Under the pieces are notes generated by a model. It ran no database searches. It was not told the DNA's origin and saw only the letters and a list, made by a program, of their open reading frames with translations. Below are positions 5,340 through 13,076 of a DNA stretch of 43,251 nucleotides, piece after piece. Position 1 is the stretch's first letter; every line of letters begins with the position of its first letter. The DNA is from Rubrivivax sp. (GTDB taxonomy: Bacteria; Pseudomonadota; Gammaproteobacteria; Burkholderiales; Burkholderiaceae_C), in contig JADLIA010000081.1 in NCBI GenBank assembly GCA_020848515.1, positions 1 to 43,251 on the forward strand, read 5' to 3'. The translations under genes and the position numbers were made by a program.

Positions 5340-5405
5340 GCAGGCGTCCTTCGGATCGAAAAGACCATTATGGGCCGCCGGGACCGGCCTATTTCCATGG
5401 CGCTT

Positions 5406-5460
5406 CAAATTCAATAGCTGCTGGCGCAGACTGGTAAATCGCTGCAAGCATCTTTTTCTT
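5406..5460 (+). repeat. Dispersed hairpin repeat, copy 2
   Basis: Reads AATAGCTGCTGGCGCAGA, then a loop, then ATCGCTGCAAGCATCTTTTT. It lies in the gap between the 3' end of the PrpF-type gene and the start of the Bug receptor gene, in opposite orientation to both. On the minus-strand transcript it would be internal to the putative operon. Confidence 0.72.
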
Positions 5461-5476
5461 GCAACACAGCGGCGCG

Positions 5477-6691
5477 TCAGGCCCCGGCGCCCAGCACCTC
5501 GGCCGGCACGCGCACCCAGCCTTCCATCAGCACGCGGGCGCTGCGGCTCATGCGCACTTCGCGCACCTGCCAGTCGCCGGTCGCGCTTTGCACCGCCTGC
5601 GCGCCTACGCGCAGCGTGCCGGAGGGGTGACCGAAGCGCACCGTCGGGCGCGCGCCGCCACCGGCGGCGGCATGCACCAGGGTGCCCGCAATGGCGGCGG
5701 CGGTGGCGATGGCCACCGCCGCCGTGCCCATCATGGCGTGGTGCAGCCGGCCCATCGACAGCGCGCGCACCAGCAGGTCGATGTCGGCCGCGCGCACCTG
5801 TCGGCCACTGGCGGCGCGGTAGTCGGCCGGCGGCGCCACGAAGGCGATCTTGGGCGTGTGCTGGCGCTGGGCGGCTTCGGTCAGCGTGGCGATAAGGCCC
5901 ATCTTCAGGGCACCCTGGGCGCGGATGGCCTCGAAGCGCGCCAGCGCCTGCGCGTCGCCGTTGAGGTCGGCCTGTCGCTCGGTGCCGCTGCAGCCGACAT
6001 CGCGGGCGTTGACGAACACGGTGGGGATGCCGGCGTTGATCAGCGTGGCCGGCAGGCGACCGATGCCGGGCACGTCCAGCTCGTCGACCAGGCGGCCGGT
6101 GGGAAACAGTCCACCCGCGCCTGCGCCGCCCTCGGCCGGGTCGAGAAAGCTCAGCCCGATCTCGGCGGCCGCGAAGGCCACGCCGTCGAGCTCGAAGTCG
6201 CCCGCTTCCTGCACCTGGCCGCCGGCCATGGGCACCTGGGCGACGATGGTCTTGCCGATGTTGGCCTGCCAGATGCGCACGCTGCAGACGCCGTCGCGCG
6301 GCACGCGCGCGGGCGGCAGCAGACCGCGGGCGATGGCGAACGGCCCCACGGCGGCCGACAGGTTGCCGCAGTTGCCCGACCAGTCCACCAGCCCGCTGTC
6401 GACGCCGATCTGGGCAAACAGGTAGTCGACGTCGTGGTCGGGCCGGCTGGCCGGGGCCAGGATCACGGCCTTGGAGGTGGACGACGTGGCGCCGCCCATG
6501 CCGTCGATCTGCTGCCCGTAGGGGTCGGGACTGCCCAGCACGCGCCGCAGCAGCGCGTCGCGCACCGGACCGGGCTGGCGCGCCGCGGCGGGCAGATCAT
6601 CCAGGCAGAAGAACACGCCCTTGCTGGTGCCGCCGCGCAGGTAGCTGGCGGCAATCCGAAGCGGGGGCAGGCAGGCGTCGGGCGGGTGCAT
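5477..6691 (-). CDS. PrpF-family isomerase (2-methylaconitate cis-trans isomerase / 4-oxalomesaconate tautomerase type)
   Basis: A 404-residue protein with the PrpF double diaminopimelate-epimerase fold. Recognisable motifs are SYLRGGTSKGVFF at the N-terminus, PYGQQIDGMGGATSSTSKAV, DWSGNCGNLSAAVGPFAI, and GRLHHAMMGTAAVAIATAAA in the C-terminal half. PrpF converts trans- to cis-2-methylaconitate in the AcnD variant of the methylcitrate cycle; close relatives isomerise 4-oxalomesaconate or 3-methylitaconate. No acnD or prpC is present here, so I leave the substrate open. The gene heads a three-gene run with the Bug receptor and the lyase. It starts 67 bp after the stop of ubiD, so transcription from upstream is possible. 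The ATG at 6691 is just upstream of the conserved N-terminus. Confidence 0.88.
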   Translation of the reverse strand: MHPPDACLPPLRIAASYLRGGTSKGVFFCLDDLPAAARQPGPVRDALLRRVLGSPDPYGQQIDGMGGATSSTSKAVILAPASRPDHDVDYLFAQIGVDSGLVDWSGNCGNLSAAVGPFAIARGLLPPARVPRDGVCSVRIWQANIGKTIVAQVPMAGGQVQEAGDFELDGVAFAAAEIGLSFLDPAEGGAGAGGLFPTGRLVDELDVPGIGRLPATLINAGIPTVFVNARDVGCSGTERQADLNGDAQALARFEAIRAQGALKMGLIATLTEAAQRQHTPKIAFVAPPADYRAASGRQVRAADIDLLVRALSMGRLHHAMMGTAAVAIATAAAIAGTLVHAAAGGGARPTVRFGHPSGTLRVGAQAVQSATGDWQVREVRMSRSARVLMEGWVRVPAEVLGAGA

Positions 6692-6758
6692 GGCGCCATG
6701 GTACGCGCCAAGCGCGGCGCACGTGACGATGGCAAGCGGCCGACGGCCGTTTTGAGGG

Positions 6759-8243
6759 TTACAGCCCCAGGTCGTCGGCCAGTGCGTTCATGCGCTGGGT
6801 CACCTCGGCATCCATGGCCATGGGCCGGCCCCATTCGCGCTGCGTCTCGCCGGGCCATTTGTGGGTCGCGTCCAGGCCCATCTTGCCCCCCAGGCCCGCC
6901 ACGGGGGAGGCAAAGTCGAGGTAGTCGATGGGGGTGTTCTCGATGAGCATGGTGTCGCGCACCGGGTCCATGCGCGTGGTCATGGCCCAGACGACCTCCT
7001 TCCAATCGCGCACGTCGATGTCCTCATCGACGACGACGACGAACTTGGTGTAGAGAAATTGGCGCAGGTGGCTCCACACGCCCATCATCACGCGCCGCGC
7101 GTGGCCGGCGTAGGCCTTTCTGATGCGCACCACGGCCATGCGATAGCTGCAGGCCTCGGGTGGCAGGTAGAAGTCGATGATCTCCGGGAAGGCACGCTGC
7201 AAGAGCGGCACGAACAGCTCGTTCAATGCCAGGCCCAGCATGGCCGGCTCGTCCGGCGGCTTGCCGGTGTAGGTGCTGTGGTAGAGCGCGTCCTCGCGCT
7301 GGGTGATGCGCTCCACGGTGAACACCGGGAACTCGGCGCATTCGTTGTAGTAGCCCGTGTGGTCGCCATACGGCCCTTCGAGCGCGTGTTGCCAGCCGCT
7401 CTTGTGGCTGGCGTCGGGGTGGATATGGCCCTCGAGCACGATCTCCGCCTGGGCCGGCACTTGCAAAGGCACGCCCAGCGCGTCGGCCACCTCGGTGCGC
7501 GCGCCGCGCAAGAGGCCAGCAAACTGGTATTCGGACAAAGCGTCGGGCACGGGGGTGACCGCGCCCAGGATGGTCGCTGGGTCCGCGCCAATGGCCACGG
7601 CCACGGGGTAGGGCTGGCCGGGGTGCTGGCGGCAATGCTCGGCAAAGTCCAGCGCCCCGCCGCGGTGCGAGAGCCAGCGCATGATGAGCTGGTTCCTGCC
7701 AATCACCTGCTGGCGGTAGATGCCGAGGTTCTGCCGTGGCTTGTTCGGCCCGCGCGTGATGGTCAGGCCCCAGGTGACGAGCGGCGCCACGTCGCCGGGC
7801 CAGCAATGCTGTATGGGCAGGCGTGCCAGATCGACCTCGGCGCCCTCCCGCACGATCTGCTGGCAGGGCGGGCGGGCTACGCGCGAGGGCGCCATGCTCC
7901 ACAGGGTCTTGAGCAGGTCGCGCCGGCCCCAGAGGTCCTTGACGCCGCGCGGCGGCTCGGGCTCCTTGAGCTGGGCCAGCACCTCGCCAAAGGCGCGGAT
8001 TTCGGGCAAACCCGCCACGCCCAGCGCGCGCGCCACGCGGCCGGGTGTGCCGAACAGGTTGGCCAGCACCGGCATGCGGTGGCCCGTGGGGTTTTCAAAC
8101 AGCAGGGCCGGGCCGCCCGCGCGCAGCACGCGGTCGGCAAGGGCCGTCATCTCCAGGTGCGGCGAGACCGGGGCGGCAATGCGGCGCAGCTCGCCTGCGG
8201 CCTCCAGCTGGGCCATGAAGTCACGCAGGTCGCGGTAGGGCAT
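6759..8243 (-). CDS. ubiD: UbiD, 3-octaprenyl-4-hydroxybenzoate carboxy-lyase
   Basis: A 494-residue protein, close to E. coli UbiD in length and highly similar as I recall that sequence. Stretches such as [115 protein letters not shown] and [13 protein letters not shown] are all in family order. It decarboxylates 3-polyprenyl-4-hydroxybenzoate in ubiquinone synthesis using prenylated FMN and a divalent metal. The cofactor is made by UbiX, encoded 210 bp upstream on the same strand. The neighbourhood with ubiT, ubiV and ubiU shows that this copy serves quinone synthesis rather than aromatic catabolism. Confidence 0.96.
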
Positions 8244-8288
8244 GGTCAGGGGCGGCTTGTCAGGTGCGGCCCTGATGGCGCCTGCCGG

Positions 8289-8380
8289 CCCTCACCCCAG
8301 TCCTCTCCCGGAGGGAGTGGCAGTGAAAACCACGGCGCGCGATCGCCCCCGTCCCTCTGGAGAGAGGGTGGGTTGAGGGG
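8289..8380. repeat. Paired inverted REP-like element between ubiX and ubiD
   Basis: The left arm 8289-8316 (CCCTCACCCCAG, then TCCTCTCCCGGAGGGA) and the right arm 8352-8380 are near-complementary over about 28 bp around a 35-nt loop. Each arm contains its own small palindrome of the type TCCC-nn-GGGA. This is the form of a REP doublet (BIME-like). It lies inside the ubi transcript and could form a strong RNA hairpin affecting ubiX/ubiD expression ratio or mRNA stability. Confidence 0.6.
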
Positions 8381-8403
8381 CCTGCGAGGCAGCTGGACAT
8401 AAG

Positions 8404-8460
8404 TGCAAAACAATGCTGCAGCGCTTGTCGGACGTGCGCCGGCAGCTATGATTTCAATAG
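8404..8460 (-). repeat. Dispersed hairpin repeat, copy 3 (overlaps the end of ubiX)
   Basis: On the minus strand: CTATTGAAATCATAGCTGCC, GGCGCA, a loop, then AAGCGCTGCAGC and TTGTTTTG. The TATTGA at its left end contains the last sense codon and the TGA stop of ubiX (8456-8454). The 3' end of ubiX is therefore built from the repeat or fused to it. Confidence 0.72.
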
Positions 8461-9038
8461 TCCGTCGGCAGCCCCGGCCAGCGGGTGCTGAGCTTGTGTT
8501 CGATGCCCAGGGCGTCCAGCGCGCGTGCCACGCTGTGATCGACGATGTCTTCCAGGCTGCGCGGGCGCTTGTAGAACGCCGGTACCGGCGGGCTGACGAT
8601 GGCACCCAGCTCGGTCACCGCCACCATGTTGCGCAGGTGGCCCAGGTGCAGGGGCGACTCGCGCGCCAGCAGCACCAGGCGGCGGCGTTCCTTCAGCACC
8701 ACGTCGGCGGCGCGCGTCAGCAGGTTGTCGCCCAGGCCGTGGGCAATCGCCGCCAGCGTGCGCATGGAGCAGGGTGCCACCACCATGCCCAGCGTGACGA
8801 AGGAGCCGCTGGCAATGCAGGCGCCGATGTTGCGGATGTCGTGCGCCTCGTCGGCCAGGGCCTGCACCTGCGCCGGTGCCAGGTCCAGCTCGTAGCGCAG
8901 GCTGCGCCAGCCGGCGTCCGACACCACCAGGTGCGTGGTGACGCTGGCCAGCTCGCGCAGCACCTGCAGCAGCCGCACGCCATAAATGGCGCCGCTGGCG
9001 CCGGTGATGCCGACGATGACGCGGCGCAGCTCAGTCAT
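8454..9038 (-). CDS. ubiX: UbiX flavin prenyltransferase
   Basis: A 194-residue member of the UbiX/Pad1 family. It has the FMN-binding loop VGITGASGAIYG at residues 8-19, VVSDAG, the MVVAPCSMRTLAAIAHG region, the NLLTRAADVVLKERRRLVLL block that forms the prenyl/phosphate site, and LGAIVSPPVPAFY. The enzyme joins dimethylallyl phosphate to FMN to make prenyl-FMN, the cofactor of UbiD encoded next downstream. The start overlaps the end of the DGC gene by 8 bp, indicating translational coupling. A repeat and a REP-like inverted pair separate it from ubiD. Confidence 0.96.
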   Translation of the reverse strand: MTELRRVIVGITGASGAIYGVRLLQVLRELASVTTHLVVSDAGWRSLRYELDLAPAQVQALADEAHDIRNIGACIASGSFVTLGMVVAPCSMRTLAAIAHGLGDNLLTRAADVVLKERRRLVLLARESPLHLGHLRNMVAVTELGAIVSPPVPAFYKRPRSLEDIVDHSVARALDALGIEHKLSTRWPGLPTDY

Positions 9039-9426
9039 GGGCGGGCGCCAGCGGATGCTGCCGCAGGTCGGCTTCGATGCGCGCCAGCACCTCGGCCGCC
9101 TGGGCCGGGTCGAAGTCCTGGTGCGTGCGCTTCTTCACGCCGTACTGGTGCAGCTGATAGTGGCGCGCCGGCGCCACCCCGTGGCGTGCCAGCGAGCTTC
9201 GAACGCACGCCAGCGGGCAGCCGTCGAGCGCCACGATGGGCCGGCCGCTGGTGGCCAGCCTGACCAGCTTGGGCACGTCGCCGCCCACGCCGGCGATGCA
9301 GGACATCTCGGCCACGCCGCGGCGGTCGAGCTGCAGCGCCACGTGGTTGGCCAGTTGCGCGGCGCTGGAGCAGCCCGAGCAGGAGTACACCAGCGGCGCG
9401 TGGTCGTGCGTGCCGGACGGGTTCAT
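9031..9426 (-). CDS. DGC-domain cysteine protein, putative zinc-binding, within the ubi operon
   Basis: A 131-residue soluble protein with five cysteines: C16 and C19 in YSCSGCSSA, C43 in MSCIAGVGGD, and C70 and C74 in ALDGCPLACV. The D68-G69-C70 triplet and cysteine pattern match the DGC family, annotated as putative zinc-binding proteins of unknown function. It overlaps ubiT by 4 bp upstream (ATGA) and ubiX by 8 bp downstream, so it is translated as part of the same operon. UbiU and UbiV carry [4Fe-4S] clusters, so a metal- or sulfur-handling or redox-sensing role in oxygen-independent ubiquinone synthesis is an attractive inference. No direct evidence is visible, and a passenger gene remains possible. 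Confidence 0.85.
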   Translation of the reverse strand: MNPSGTHDHAPLVYSCSGCSSAAQLANHVALQLDRRGVAEMSCIAGVGGDVPKLVRLATSGRPIVALDGCPLACVRSSLARHGVAPARHYQLHQYGVKKRTHQDFDPAQAAEVLARIEADLRQHPLAPAHD

Positions 9427-9944
9427 CGGCGCGGCGCCGAAAACGGCGGGAAGGGCGGCAGCCGCTCGGCCAGCCCCGGCGCCCAGCGCGCCAGCACGGC
9501 GCGCGGGCTCCAGGCCGCCGGGTCGAGCACCGGCAGCTCCAGCGCGTCGAGCGCGTTCTTGACCACCAGGCCGAGCTCGGTGTCGCCCTCCATCACCAGG
9601 CGGCGGTTGAAGAACAGCGTGTCCGGGTCCTGGCGGCGCTGGGCCAGCAGCAGAAAGTCCTGCGCGTTGGCGCTGATGGCCAGGTCGGGCTCGGCGTGCG
9701 GCGCGCTGGGGGCAAAGCGCCGGCCGTTCCAAGTGAAGTCGAAACCCAGGCGGGCGTCGCGCACGCGGATCGACAGGCGCTTGTCCTTCAGCAGCGTCGT
9801 CACGTCCTCGGGCAGCTGGCGCGCCAGCGCCAGGTTGATGGCGCTGACCAGCAGCACCGAGCCGGGGTAGGCCGGCAGGCACGACAGCAGCGCACCCACC
9901 GGACGCGGCAGGGTGAAGGGGGTGGGCAGGGGGGGCGTGGTCAT
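9423..9944 (-). CDS. ubiT: UbiT, SCP2-domain accessory factor of oxygen-independent ubiquinone synthesis
   Basis: A 173-residue protein with an SCP2 sterol-carrier-like fold: LEDVTTLLKDKRLSIRV-like core (here LPEDVTTLLKDK), DFTWNGRRF, DLAISANAQDFLLLAQRRQD, LFFNRRLVMEGDTELGLVV and KNALDALE. The motif NRRLxxEGDTELGLxxKN is typical of UbiT/YhbT. UbiT is thought to bind ubiquinone intermediates through its lipid-binding pocket and, with UbiU and UbiV, supports ring hydroxylation without O2. The start at 9944 has GAGGAG about 7 nt upstream. It lies 28 bp after ubiV, and its stop overlaps the start of the DGC gene. Confidence 0.92.
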   Translation of the reverse strand: MTTPPLPTPFTLPRPVGALLSCLPAYPGSVLLVSAINLALARQLPEDVTTLLKDKRLSIRVRDARLGFDFTWNGRRFAPSAPHAEPDLAISANAQDFLLLAQRRQDPDTLFFNRRLVMEGDTELGLVVKNALDALELPVLDPAAWSPRAVLARWAPGLAERLPPFPPFSAPRR

Positions 9945-9972
9945 GACAGGCTCCTCGCGCGTGCGCCGGCGT

Positions 9973-10884
9973 TCAGGCCAGTGCCGGCTCGATCAGGTCC
10001 ATGCCGGAGCGCCCGTGCCAGTAGCCGTTGCAGGGTTCGTCGGGCATCATCGGGCGCAGGCGTGCCAGCGCGTCGGGGTCGGGCGTGTCGGCGCGGCGCG
10101 CGGCGTCGAAGGCGGCGACGATGTCGGCCATGTGCTGCGACTGCGGCGACAGGCGCAGCACGTCGACGCCCAGGGCGCGCAGCTCGGGCAGGTCGTGGAT
10201 CAGGTTGTACACGCGCGCCGACTGCGTCTGGATGCCGTTGAGCACCAGAAACGATTCGCCCTCGCGCGTCTTCAGCAACTGCCCGTCGGGGTGCTGGATG
10301 CAGGCAAAACCGCAGTCGTCCTTGGGCAGGTTGTAGTGGCGCGCGGTGAAGCAGCGCGCCGAAAACGCCAGCGGCATGCGGCCATAGGCGAACACCTCGG
10401 TTTCCAGCCCGGCTGGCCGCTCGCGCTGCAGCACGGCCAGATCGTCGCGGCGCATCTCCAGTGGCACGACCCAGCGGCTGGCGCCCAGGCTGGCCATCCA
10501 GGCCAGCGTGTCGGCGTTGAAGACGTTGAGCTGCGGCCCGGCCACGAAGGGCCGCTGGCCGGCCAGGTTGTGCACGGCGCCCATGTCGCCGGCCTCGATC
10601 AGCCAGCCTTCCTCGCGCACGATCTTGTGCATGGCGGCGACGTCGGCCGTCGATTCCAGCAGCACCATGGTCGACAACACGGCCTGCTTGCCGGCATCGC
10701 GCAGCATGCGCGCGATGTCCAGCCAGTCGCCGTGACGCAGCTCGTGGCGGCGCGAACACACGGCCTCGCCCACGTAGACGATGTCCACCGCGGTCTCGGC
10801 CATGGCCTGGTAGAACTCGAACACCGTCTCGCGTGGCCAGTAGTACAGCAGTGGGCCCAGGGCCAGTTTCATCGTCGTGCTCAT
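9973..10884 (-). CDS. ubiV: UbiV, U32-family Fe-S protein of oxygen-independent ubiquinone hydroxylation
   Basis: About 303 residues, peptidase U32 family, resembling E. coli UbiV/Yhb[101 protein letters not shown] and [12 protein letters not shown]. The four cysteines that would hold the [4Fe-4S] cluster are in place (C43, C178, C191, C195). With UbiU it hydroxylates the ubiquinone precursor ring using an oxygen donor other than O2 (prephenate in E. coli). The start is uncertain: ATG at 10884 is used, but ATG at 10893 (overlapping the ubiU stop) and at 10872 are in frame. Confidence 0.94.
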
Positions 10885-10889
10885 GTCGA

Positions 10890-11939
10890 TCATTTCCATG
10901 GCCGGTGGTAGGCGCCCAGCGTGTGCTGCTGGCCCTCGGCCACCTGGTCCAGGCTGGCCATCCAGGCGGTCTTGGGCGCGTACAGGTGGCCCTGCGCCAT
11001 GCAGTGGTCGATGGCCTCGCGCCAGACCTTGGTGACCTGCGCCACATAGGCGGGGCTGCGCTGGCGGCCCTCGATCTTGAAGGCGCGCACGCCCATCTTC
11101 ACGAGCTGGGGCAGCAGCTCCAGGGTGTTGAGGCTGGTGGGCTCCTCGAGCGCATAGTAGTTGCTCTCCTCGCCCACGTCGAAGCGGCCCTTGCACAGCG
11201 TCGGGTAGCCGGCGTTTTCGCCCTGGCCGTACTTGTCGATCAGCACGCCGTTCAGGCGCGACTCCACGCCGCTGGGCGTCTCCTTCCAGCGCACGAACTT
11301 GGCCGGCGAGCACACGCCATGGGTGTTGGGCGACTCGCCGGTGGCGTAGGACGACAGCGCGCAGCGCCCCTCGACCATCACGCACAGGCTGCCAAAGCCA
11401 AACACCTCGATCTCCACCGGCGTGCGCTGCACCACCTGCTTGACCTGCTCCAGCGACAGCACGCGCGGCAGCACCGCGCGCTGGATGTTGAATTGCTGGT
11501 GGTAGAGGTTGATGGCGTCGTGGTTGGTGGCCGAACCCTGTACCGACAGGTGCAGTCGCAGGCTGGGGTGGCGCTCGCAGGCGTAGCGCATCAGCCCCGG
11601 GTCGGCCAGGATGATGGCGTCCACACCCCAGGCGGCGGCTCGGTCCATGGCCGAGCGCCAGGGCGCCGGGTTGCTGGCCTGCGGATAGGTGTTGAGCGCC
11701 AGCAGCACCTTGCGGCCGCGCGCGTGGGCATAGGCGATGCCGGTCTGGATGGCCGCCTCGTCGAAGTTCAGGCCGGCGAAATTGCGCGCGTTGGTGGCGT
11801 CGCGCAGGCCCAGGTAGACGCAGTCGGCGCCGCCGTCGATGGCGGCTTTCAGCGCCGGCAGGCTGCCGGCCGGGCAGACCAGTTCGGGGGCGGCGCGGCT
11901 GACCTCGTTGGAGGCGGTGGGGGTCGCGGTGGCGGTCAC
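10890..11939 (-). CDS. ubiU: UbiU, U32-family Fe-S protein of oxygen-independent ubiquinone hydroxylation
   Basis: A 349-residue protein resembling E. coli UbiU/YhbU over its whole length: [142 protein letters not shown]. The cluster ligands C186, C193, C210 and C249 are present. It forms a heterodimer with UbiV. The start is a GTG at 11939-11937, preceded by AAGGAAG; a short Thr/Ala-rich N-terminal extension precedes the conserved part. It is the first gene of the ubiUVT-DGC-ubiXD run and lies about 88 nt downstream of a predicted FNR-dependent transcription start. Confidence 0.94.
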
Positions 11940-12026
11940 GGGCACTTCCTTCGGCGAACGAACGCCATGCGCTGGGCCAGCGTGCGCCGTCATGACCGGA
12001 CGAGTCAGGCCACGCAGCGCGCCCAG

Positions 12027-12075
12027 ACCGGGCACTGTAGGCCGATCGCCGGCGCCGCGTTATGACCTCGGTCAA
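12027..12075 (-). promoter_or_regulatory. Predicted FNR/ANR-type class II promoter of ubiU
   Basis: On the minus strand TTGAC-CGAG-GTCAT (12075-12062) matches the FNR-family half-site pair TTGA-N6-TCAA with one mismatch in the last base. TACAGT (12039-12034) is a good -10. With that -10 the start site falls at 12027 and the box is centred at -41.5, the standard position for class II FNR activation. No convincing -35 hexamer is needed in this architecture. The 5' leader would be about 88 nt. Confidence 0.72.
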
Positions 12076-12089
12076 CCGAAACCGGATAT

Positions 12090-12110
12090 TCCCGAAGAAA
12101 TCACTCGGGA
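12090..12110. terminator. Inverted repeat downstream of mmsB, possible terminator
   Basis: TCCCGA (12090-12095) and TCGGGA (12105-12110) are perfect complements around a 9-nt loop. They lie about 58 nt past the mmsB stop and just upstream of the ubiU promoter. A second GC hairpin, CGCCC/GGGCG, sits at about 12130-12145. There is no T tract; either may end the mms transcript or insulate the ubi promoter. Confidence 0.35.
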
Positions 12111-12167
12111 TTGCGCCACCGGCTGGGCCCGCCCCGGTCCGGGCGCGTCGTGTCGTTCAGCCTGGGC

Positions 12168-13076
12168 TCAGGGCAGCCGGGTCAACAGCTGCACGACGCC
12201 GGAGAAGTCCTGCCCGCCGCGGCCGGCCTGTTTGTTCAGGGCGTACAGGTTGCGCGCCAGCTCGCCCAGCGGAATGCTGGCGCCCACGCCCATGGCGGCC
12301 TCGACCGCCAGGCCCAGGTCCTTGAGCATCAGGTCGTTGCCGAAGCCGCCGCTGTAGCCGCGCGAGGCCGGGGCGTTGGGGTGCACGCCGGGCCAGGGGT
12401 TGCAGACTTCGGTGGCCCAGCTGCGGCTGGTGCTGACGGCCATCATGTCGGACAGCGTCTTGGCGTCCAGCCCGTGCGCCACGCCCAGGGCGATGGCTTC
12501 GCCGGTGACGGCCATGATCACGCCCAGCGCCATGTTGTTGCACAGCTTGGCCACCTGGCCGGCACCGATGGCGCCCATGTGGAAGATGTTCTTGCCCATG
12601 GCCTGCAGCACCGGGCGGGCGCGCTCCAGCGCCGCCGCCTCGCCGCCGACGATGAAGGTCAGCGTGCCGGCCGTGGCGCCGGCCACGCCGCCCGAGACCG
12701 GCGCGTCGATCATGGCCAGTCCGCGCGCGCCGGCGGCCTGGGCCACCTTCTGCGCCGACGCGGGGGCGATGGTGCTGGAGTCGATCAGCAGCGCGCCTGG
12801 CTCGATGGCGGCCAGCAGGCCCTCGGCGTCGCCCGTGCCCAGGTACAGGCCTTCGACGTGGCGGCTGGCCGGCAGCATGGAGATCACCACCTGCGCGCCG
12901 GCCACGGCCGCGCGGGCGGAGTCGGCGGTCGGCACGCCCTGGGCGCGCACGGCGGCCAGGGCGTCGGCGCTGAGGTCGAAGGCGCTGACGGCAAAGCCGG
13001 CCTTGTGCAGGTTGGTGGCCATCGGGCCGCCCATGTGGCCCAGGCCGATGAAGGCGATGCGGGTGGGGGTGCTCAT
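12168..13076 (-). CDS. mmsB: MmsB, 3-hydroxyisobutyrate dehydrogenase
   Basis: A 302-residue beta-hydroxyacid dehydrogenase. The Rossmann motif IAFIGLGHMGGPMATNLHKA is at residues 7-26, the substrate loop DAPVSGGVAGATAGTLTFIV around 124-143, and GAGQVAKLCNN carries the catalytic lysine K177 and the helper N180. The enzyme oxidises 3-hydroxyisobutyrate to methylmalonate semialdehyde with NAD+, the step before MmsA in valine degradation. The ATG at 13076 has AAGGAGA at ideal spacing; a longer frame reaching 13163 is rejected. It is last in the mms operon, 52 bp after the hydrolase gene. Confidence 0.95.
   Translation of the reverse strand: MSTPTRIAFIGLGHMGGPMATNLHKAGFAVSAFDLSADALAAVRAQGVPTADSARAAVAGAQVVISMLPASRHVEGLYLGTGDAEGLLAAIEPGALLIDSSTIAPASAQKVAQAAGARGLAMIDAPVSGGVAGATAGTLTFIVGGEAAALERARPVLQAMGKNIFHMGAIGAGQVAKLCNNMALGVIMAVTGEAIALGVAHGLDAKTLSDMMAVSTSRSWATEVCNPWPGVHPNAPASRGYSGGFGNDLMLKDLGLAVEAAMGVGASIPLGELARNLYALNKQAGRGGQDFSGVVQLLTRLP

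Follow-up and report, generated by a model that had tools for sequence, protein, structure and literature searches.

Schemes of ubiquinone synthesis usually show UbiX and UbiD as common to the aerobic and the anaerobic routes, and a locus in which their genes follow those of the oxygen-independent route raises the question whether they may be governed by the same low-oxygen switch. This arrangement occurs in a window of 43,251 nucleotides, the whole stretch of DNA that was analysed, from a draft genome of 2.48 Mb that is 77% complete. The window contains an O2-independent ubiquinone locus, in which UbiU, UbiV and UbiT are encoded adjacently and each score above the curated cut-off. A preliminary description of the sequence had named ubiU, ubiV, ubiT, ubiX and ubiD and had proposed a class II FNR-type promoter for the entire run. 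All five names were confirmed by matches above the curated HMM cut-offs, and the fourth gene of the run carries a DGC domain. In the direction of the genes, the features are:

12062 to 12075, minus strand: FNR/DNR-type box TTGACCGAGGTCAT, matching 9 of 10 consensus positions and conserved in register in relatives
12034 to 12039, minus strand: -10 element TACAGT, 22 nt downstream of the box; TANNNT in relatives, mostly TAAGGT
12027, minus strand: putative transcription start, deduced from the geometry, with the box centre at -41.5
10890 to 11939, minus strand: ubiU (NF047963, 559.6 bits, cut-off 440), with a GTG start at 11939
9973 to 10893, minus strand: ubiV (NF047965, 407.7 bits, cut-off 275), its start overlapping the ubiU stop (ATGA)
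9423 to 9944, minus strand: ubiT (SCP2 domain, PF02036; NF047962, 143.7 bits, cut-off 46.9), 28 nt from ubiV
9031 to 9426, minus strand: DGC-domain gene (PF08859, 119.2 bits, cut-off 27), its start overlapping the ubiT stop (ATGA)
8454 to 9038, minus strand: ubiX, flavin prenyltransferase (NF004685, 280.6 bits, cut-off 188), overlapping the DGC gene by 8 nt
8244 to 8453, minus strand: ubiX-ubiD gap of 210 nt with a hairpin-forming repeat (z -2.9)
6759 to 8243, minus strand: ubiD, 4-hydroxy-3-polyprenylbenzoate decarboxylase (NF008175, 817.2 bits, cut-off 788)
5477 to 6691, minus strand: prpF-like gene (TIGR02334)

Counted from the inferred +1, the leader of ubiU comprises about 88 nt, and the HMM match of UbiU begins at residue 19. 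The gene upstream of the promoter on the same strand encodes a 3-hydroxyisobutyrate dehydrogenase. At the far end, a prpF-like gene also follows ubiD in the loci L044 and L165 and is possibly a lineage-specific tail of the run. Partial relatives of the repeat in the ubiX-ubiD gap lie at the corresponding position in L052 and L060, and after ubiX in L054; in the near relative L044 this gap measures only 61 nt.

The box and the TACAGT element were both located on the minus strand at the positions given in the preliminary description (12075-12062 and 12039-12034), 22 nt apart, and with a start at 12027 the box centre (12068/12069) indeed comes to lie at -41.5, which is the class II position of FNR-type activators. 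TTGACCGAGGTCAT departs from the palindrome TTGAT-N4-ATCAA by a single base (TCAT instead of TCAA). Three sites with at most one mismatch occur in the window, compared to 1.17 expected, a number equalled in 10 of 100 shuffles, and the window box taken alone is within chance. No site with at most one mismatch was obtained in the window when the motif was read backwards. The gene run itself contains no second 9/10 box besides the site before ubiU, and neither of the other two boxes of the window is followed by TANNNT at 22 nt, whichever strand is read. A hairpin that resembles a terminator and has a short T stretch (12082-12095, minus strand) lies immediately upstream of the box and could terminate messages from the upstream dehydrogenase gene. 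Across 5400-12400, three terminators were found compared to 2.5 expected, thus not above chance, and neither of the coding-strand candidates, at 7079-7062 inside ubiD and at 12095-12082 just before the box, is convincing.

The preliminary description had looked to close relatives for conservation of the promoter. The 450 nt upstream of ubiU were compared for 54 loci, the best 30 from one search and 24 from another; removal of six duplicates left 48, comprising 32 of Comamonadaceae type (L013-L032 and L043-L060, a label that we assigned from record titles) and 16 others. A box of at least 9/10 was present in 30 of the 32 Comamonadaceae-type upstream regions, while 200 Markov shuffles of these regions yielded such a box in 0.8 on average and in three at most; among the other loci it was rarer (7/16). 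The box was kept in register with the -10 element: within the 30 loci, TANNNT occurred at 22 nt from the box in 23 and at 21 nt in two, and at any other offset between 0 and 40 in no more than one locus each. By this strict count, the 21-22 nt geometry is missing in 7 of the 32 loci, and in the two loci below 9/10 an 8/10 box is followed by TANNNT, at 22 nt in L021 and at 21 nt in L060. As the distance between box and gene differs widely among the loci, the conserved feature is the geometry of box and -10 element, and this conservation in register indicates that the window box is non-random despite the chance-level score of the single site. A class II FNR-type promoter before ubiU, as claimed earlier, is therefore well supported by a palindrome-like box and a fixed -10 spacing, both in the window and in its relatives, and the element is very probably a low-oxygen (FNR-type) switch ahead of the oxygen-independent ubiquinone genes. 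Of 29 boxes chosen by hand and aligned, 19 end in G, six in T and four in A, and the -10 element of these loci was mostly CCTAAGGT; the imperfect half-site thus appears to be conserved, perhaps reflecting a tuned affinity.

Sites of this type also occur elsewhere in the window's own genome. The perfect palindrome was found at 12 places, compared to two for the backwards motif, which suggests that a regulator of the FNR/DNR type operates there. One perfect box is located about 50 nt upstream of ccoN (L005), a gene often under FNR control, and lacks TANNNT at 22 nt. Only two of the 12 boxes have TANNNT at this distance (2 of 24 strand-readings). Their other neighbours are mixed and encode PhaC, a YeeE-like transporter, a YbiB-like protein, a Macro-domain protein, MarR and TctC proteins, zinc-type dehydrogenases and a COX1-family protein, and several of the boxes may be intragenic. 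Given the mixed neighbours and the rare TANNNT, the regulon in this genome rests on the number of sites more than on gene content. The perfect box before the Macro-domain gene (L007, 1084-1125) has TAAGGT at 22 nt, the promoter form seen in most ubiU relatives. A gene for a CRP/FNR-family regulator with an APETLSR helix, possibly of DNR type, lies just downstream of another perfect box (L002, 1501-2181). A clear FNR was not found in this 77%-complete genome, where a full UbiA was not found either. Across the genomes compared, an FNR HMM match above the curated cut-off is present in 103 of 149, and within the genus 11 of 13 UbiU-positive genomes score at least 219 bits. In a further UbiU-positive genome of the genus (G017), whose record is partly unreadable, protein search identified an FNR that is 84% identical to that of the close relative G010, which has a CSNCNLRELC cysteine cluster near the N-terminus and an LETVSR recognition helix. 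DNR and NnrR proteins read the same type of box as FNR; the boxes are indistinguishable, and hence the regulator is named only as FNR-type.

The extension of the run to ubiX and ubiD was followed in 29 informative Comamonadaceae-type loci, including the window, that reach far enough downstream and were counted by hand; G010/L043, L048, G026 and G028 were left out for insufficient reach. In 27 of these, ubiX and/or ubiD follow ubiUVT on the same strand, and in 22 both do so in this order. Cultured relatives with the run include Diaphorobacter nitroreducens DSM 15985 (L056) and Paenacidovorax caeni R-24608 (L053). UbiUVT without UbiX and UbiD was found in G001 and G027. Outside the Comamonadaceae-type set, DGC, ubiX and ubiD followed ubiUVT in none of 12 loci within the stretch fetched. 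Among 19 non-duplicate loci, the match ends of ubiX and ubiD lay 30-82 nt apart in 14 and 189-229 nt apart in the other five (the window, L052, L059, L060 and G053), so that ubiD may be partly uncoupled by the structured gap of 210 nt in the window. In G005, ubiD is located apart from the run and lacks a 9/10 box. No such box was detected within 450 nt before ubiD in 30 loci, taken from 88 genomes with a match, where chance predicts few anyway.

An apparent deletion in the finished genome G031 (one contig, 99% complete, UbiU-negative) bears on the run as a unit. This genome retains an FNR-type box, TTGACAAGGATCAG, and roughly 30 codons from the start of ubiU, which run straight into the ubiD end (L271, 7304-7787). 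Compared to L053, one block of about 4.6 kb is missing, and everything from early ubiU to late ubiD seems to have been lost in one event. The TANNNT at 22 nt is gone as well, with TGTGGT in its place. UbiA is present in G031, along with a weak UbiX-like match only and no whole UbiD. A second fragment of a ubiD end occurs about 2.5 kb further along (L271, 10253-10585).

UbiX and UbiD also follow UbiU across genomes. Within the genus (29 genomes), 13 are UbiU-positive; eight genomes have both UbiD and UbiX, all of them UbiU-positive, and none of the 16 UbiU-negative genomes carries either. The wider pattern was placed on a UbiA tree with 93 rows, five of them outgroup rows and the other 88 taken from the 89 family relatives; G067, with no UbiA match, and the window's own genome are not in it. 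This tree was built rapidly from a single gene, with frames chosen by alignment, and many of its forks are weak. The enclosing clade of 64 genomes has a support of 86. In this clade, UbiD and UbiX occur in 15 of 20 UbiU-positive genomes compared to 1 of 44 UbiU-negative ones (Fisher p 1.4e-9, ignoring kinship), and the place of that sole exception, G060, in the tree is unsure. When kinship was taken into account, 10 independent pairs on starred branches gave seven changing together, none in opposite direction and three without difference (p 0.016). Dropping the genomes that are less than 90% complete left 49, 15 with both, 31 with neither, two with UbiU only and one with UbiD only, and six pairs, five together, none opposite and one without difference (p 0.06, not significant). 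All rows of the tree carry UbiA by construction, and the UbiU-negative genomes presumably make ubiquinone. UbiD occurs without UbiU in 17 genomes of the family that lie outside the genus, including G060, and the tie of UbiU to UbiD and UbiX thus belongs to this clade and not to UbiD at large. Within it, UbiX and UbiD look tied to the anaerobic route, which implies another aerobic decarboxylation. A COQ4-type aerobic substitute (PF05019) was rejected for the family, as it occurred in 1 of 149 genomes, G111, which lies outside the family.

The DGC protein, with its cysteines in CxxC and DGCPLAC, shows a comparable distribution. PF08859 was found in 22 of the 149 genomes, 21 among 48 UbiU-positive and one (G071) among 101 UbiU-negative ones (p 2e-11, ignoring kinship). 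In several genomes the gene is distant from ubiUVT, and linkage alone is therefore insufficient to account for the co-occurrence, which a shared anaerobic lifestyle could cause. In G102, from another family of the order, a ubiUVT-DGC run is present (L276, 6856-9538), and the link to DGC may predate the extension to ubiXD. DGC also occurs in plasmids, in 30 records; in the 10 of these that were viewed, the annotation is mostly putative zinc-binding protein. A search for similar solved structures returned none with E below 0.9.

Taken together, we hold it probable that these observations have a joint explanation, FNR-type class II activation of ubiUVT-DGC-ubiX, and probably ubiD, at low oxygen. 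When oxygen falls, an activator of the FNR family (the oxygen-sensing FNR being the most likely one) would bind the box at -41.5 and contact RNA polymerase as class II activators do, with transcription starting near 12027, and a single message would span ubiU-ubiV-ubiT-DGC-ubiX and probably ubiD too. UbiU and UbiV would then substitute for the oxygen-using hydroxylases and UbiT for the aerobic lipid-binding factor, and UbiX and UbiD would provide the decarboxylation that is required without oxygen. We infer binding, activation, the extent of the transcript and a mainly anaerobic expression of ubiXD from the sequences; that the promoter would govern the run in full, ubiX and ubiD included, as previously proposed, is suggested by the gene overlaps, the gene order, the co-occurrence, the deletion in G031 and a parallel in Hyphomicrobium. 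As a broader proposal, the UbiX-UbiD of Comamonadaceae may be an anaerobic enzyme that FNR switches on along with UbiUVT, with a different aerobic decarboxylation step, probably oxygen-using and neither UbiD nor COQ4, and with DGC as a further part of the anaerobic module; for this proposal as a whole we see the chances as about even.

That the box is a chance similarity and the true promoter lies elsewhere would fit the chance-level score of the single site and a -10 element, TACAGT, that matches only 4 of 6 positions, but the conservation in register refutes it in the main and renders it very improbable. A different possibility concerns the signal: the box may be read mainly by a nitric-oxide-responsive regulator of the DNR/NnrR type, so that the operon would track denitrification and not oxygen itself. 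DNR and NnrR share the box type, and the APETLSR-helix regulator gene in the window's own genome follows a perfect box; conversely, FNR itself occurs widely across the genus, and a box of the same type precedes ccoN here, a gene often under FNR. The published parallels likewise point both ways, as ubiXDTUV of Hyphomicrobium tracks denitrification (PMC12423496), while FNR controls ubiUVT in E. coli (PMC10470549). We regard a mainly nitric-oxide-dependent control as rather unlikely, and it would be compatible with control by FNR.

The part of ubiX and ubiD can be questioned in two further ways. Both genes may merely neighbour the FNR operon and be expressed from a constitutive promoter of their own inside or after ubiX, as might be expected from E. 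coli, which uses the same UbiX and UbiD with and without oxygen (PMC6747719), from the long gap in the window and four others of the 19 loci and from the separate ubiD in G005. The short ubiX-ubiD spacing in 14 of the 19 loci and the overlap of DGC and ubiX in the window argue against such a promoter, and no sigma-70-like site was found on the coding strand within 5400-12400, which is a weak test. In addition, UbiX and UbiD are missing from 43 of the 44 UbiU-negative genomes of the clade, so aerobic life there seems not to need them, and a constitutive ubiXD appears doubtful. Alternatively, UbiX and UbiD may have been lost along with UbiUVT through physical linkage, with no functional bond. 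The junction in G031 does represent a linked loss; the losses look repeated, however, with seven of 10 independent pairs changing together and none opposite (five and none of six, with one showing no difference and without significance, once genomes less than 90% complete are removed). We therefore take mere linkage as possible but not likely. Linked loss of the sole UbiX and UbiD would also be unsustainable if aerobic ubiquinone synthesis needed them, and an aerobic alternative is thus implied either way.

If a large bacterial group ties UbiX and UbiD to the anaerobic route, a further decarboxylase must act in its aerobic route; the UbiA-positive genomes without UbiD and UbiX, of which some are finished, are already available for a search. 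Such a tie agrees with work on E. coli, where ubiD and ubiX mutants are described to make limited ubiquinone, and only with oxygen (PMC6747719). Bacteria without UbiD-UbiX have been reported (PMC8854274).

Regulation of ubiUVT by FNR, which the preliminary description had treated as prior knowledge, is already in print (PMC10470549 for E. coli; PMC11707229). In E. coli, fusions showed activation by FNR at both the ubiUV and the ubiT promoter, which was lost when the box was mutated (PMC10470549). FNR-type boxes precede the UbiUVT genes there as they do here; however, ubiT and ubiUV of E. coli are expressed from one intergenic region with two boxes (PMC10470549), whereas in the window a lone box precedes one run, which includes DGC, ubiX and ubiD as well. 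The window site is of the same kind as the conserved sites predicted for 1362 of 1566 ubiTUV triplets across Pseudomonadota (PMC11707229); that study positions the sites relative to the start codons, its section on FNR sites gives no -10 spacing, and the words ubiX and ubiD do not appear in its main text. Among the open-licence papers listed by the literature searches, no title or abstract dealt with loss of ubiX or ubiD in Comamonadaceae or with DGC alongside ubiUVT. A published parallel is Hyphomicrobium denitrificans, in which single-copy ubiX and ubiD are clustered with the anaerobic genes (ubiXDTUV) and co-regulated with denitrification, and for which the authors propose an alternative aerobic decarboxylase (PMC12423496). 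This resembles the Comamonadaceae loci in the association of ubiX and ubiD with the anaerobic ubi genes, and differs in that it concerns one organism, an alphaproteobacterium with another gene order, studied with sHdrR and SoxR mutants rather than with FNR; the main text makes no use of the term DGC (PMC12423496). Thus, the FNR promoter before ubiUVT is known in kind, and the new part is its extension to ubiX and ubiD, together with the pattern across the clade.
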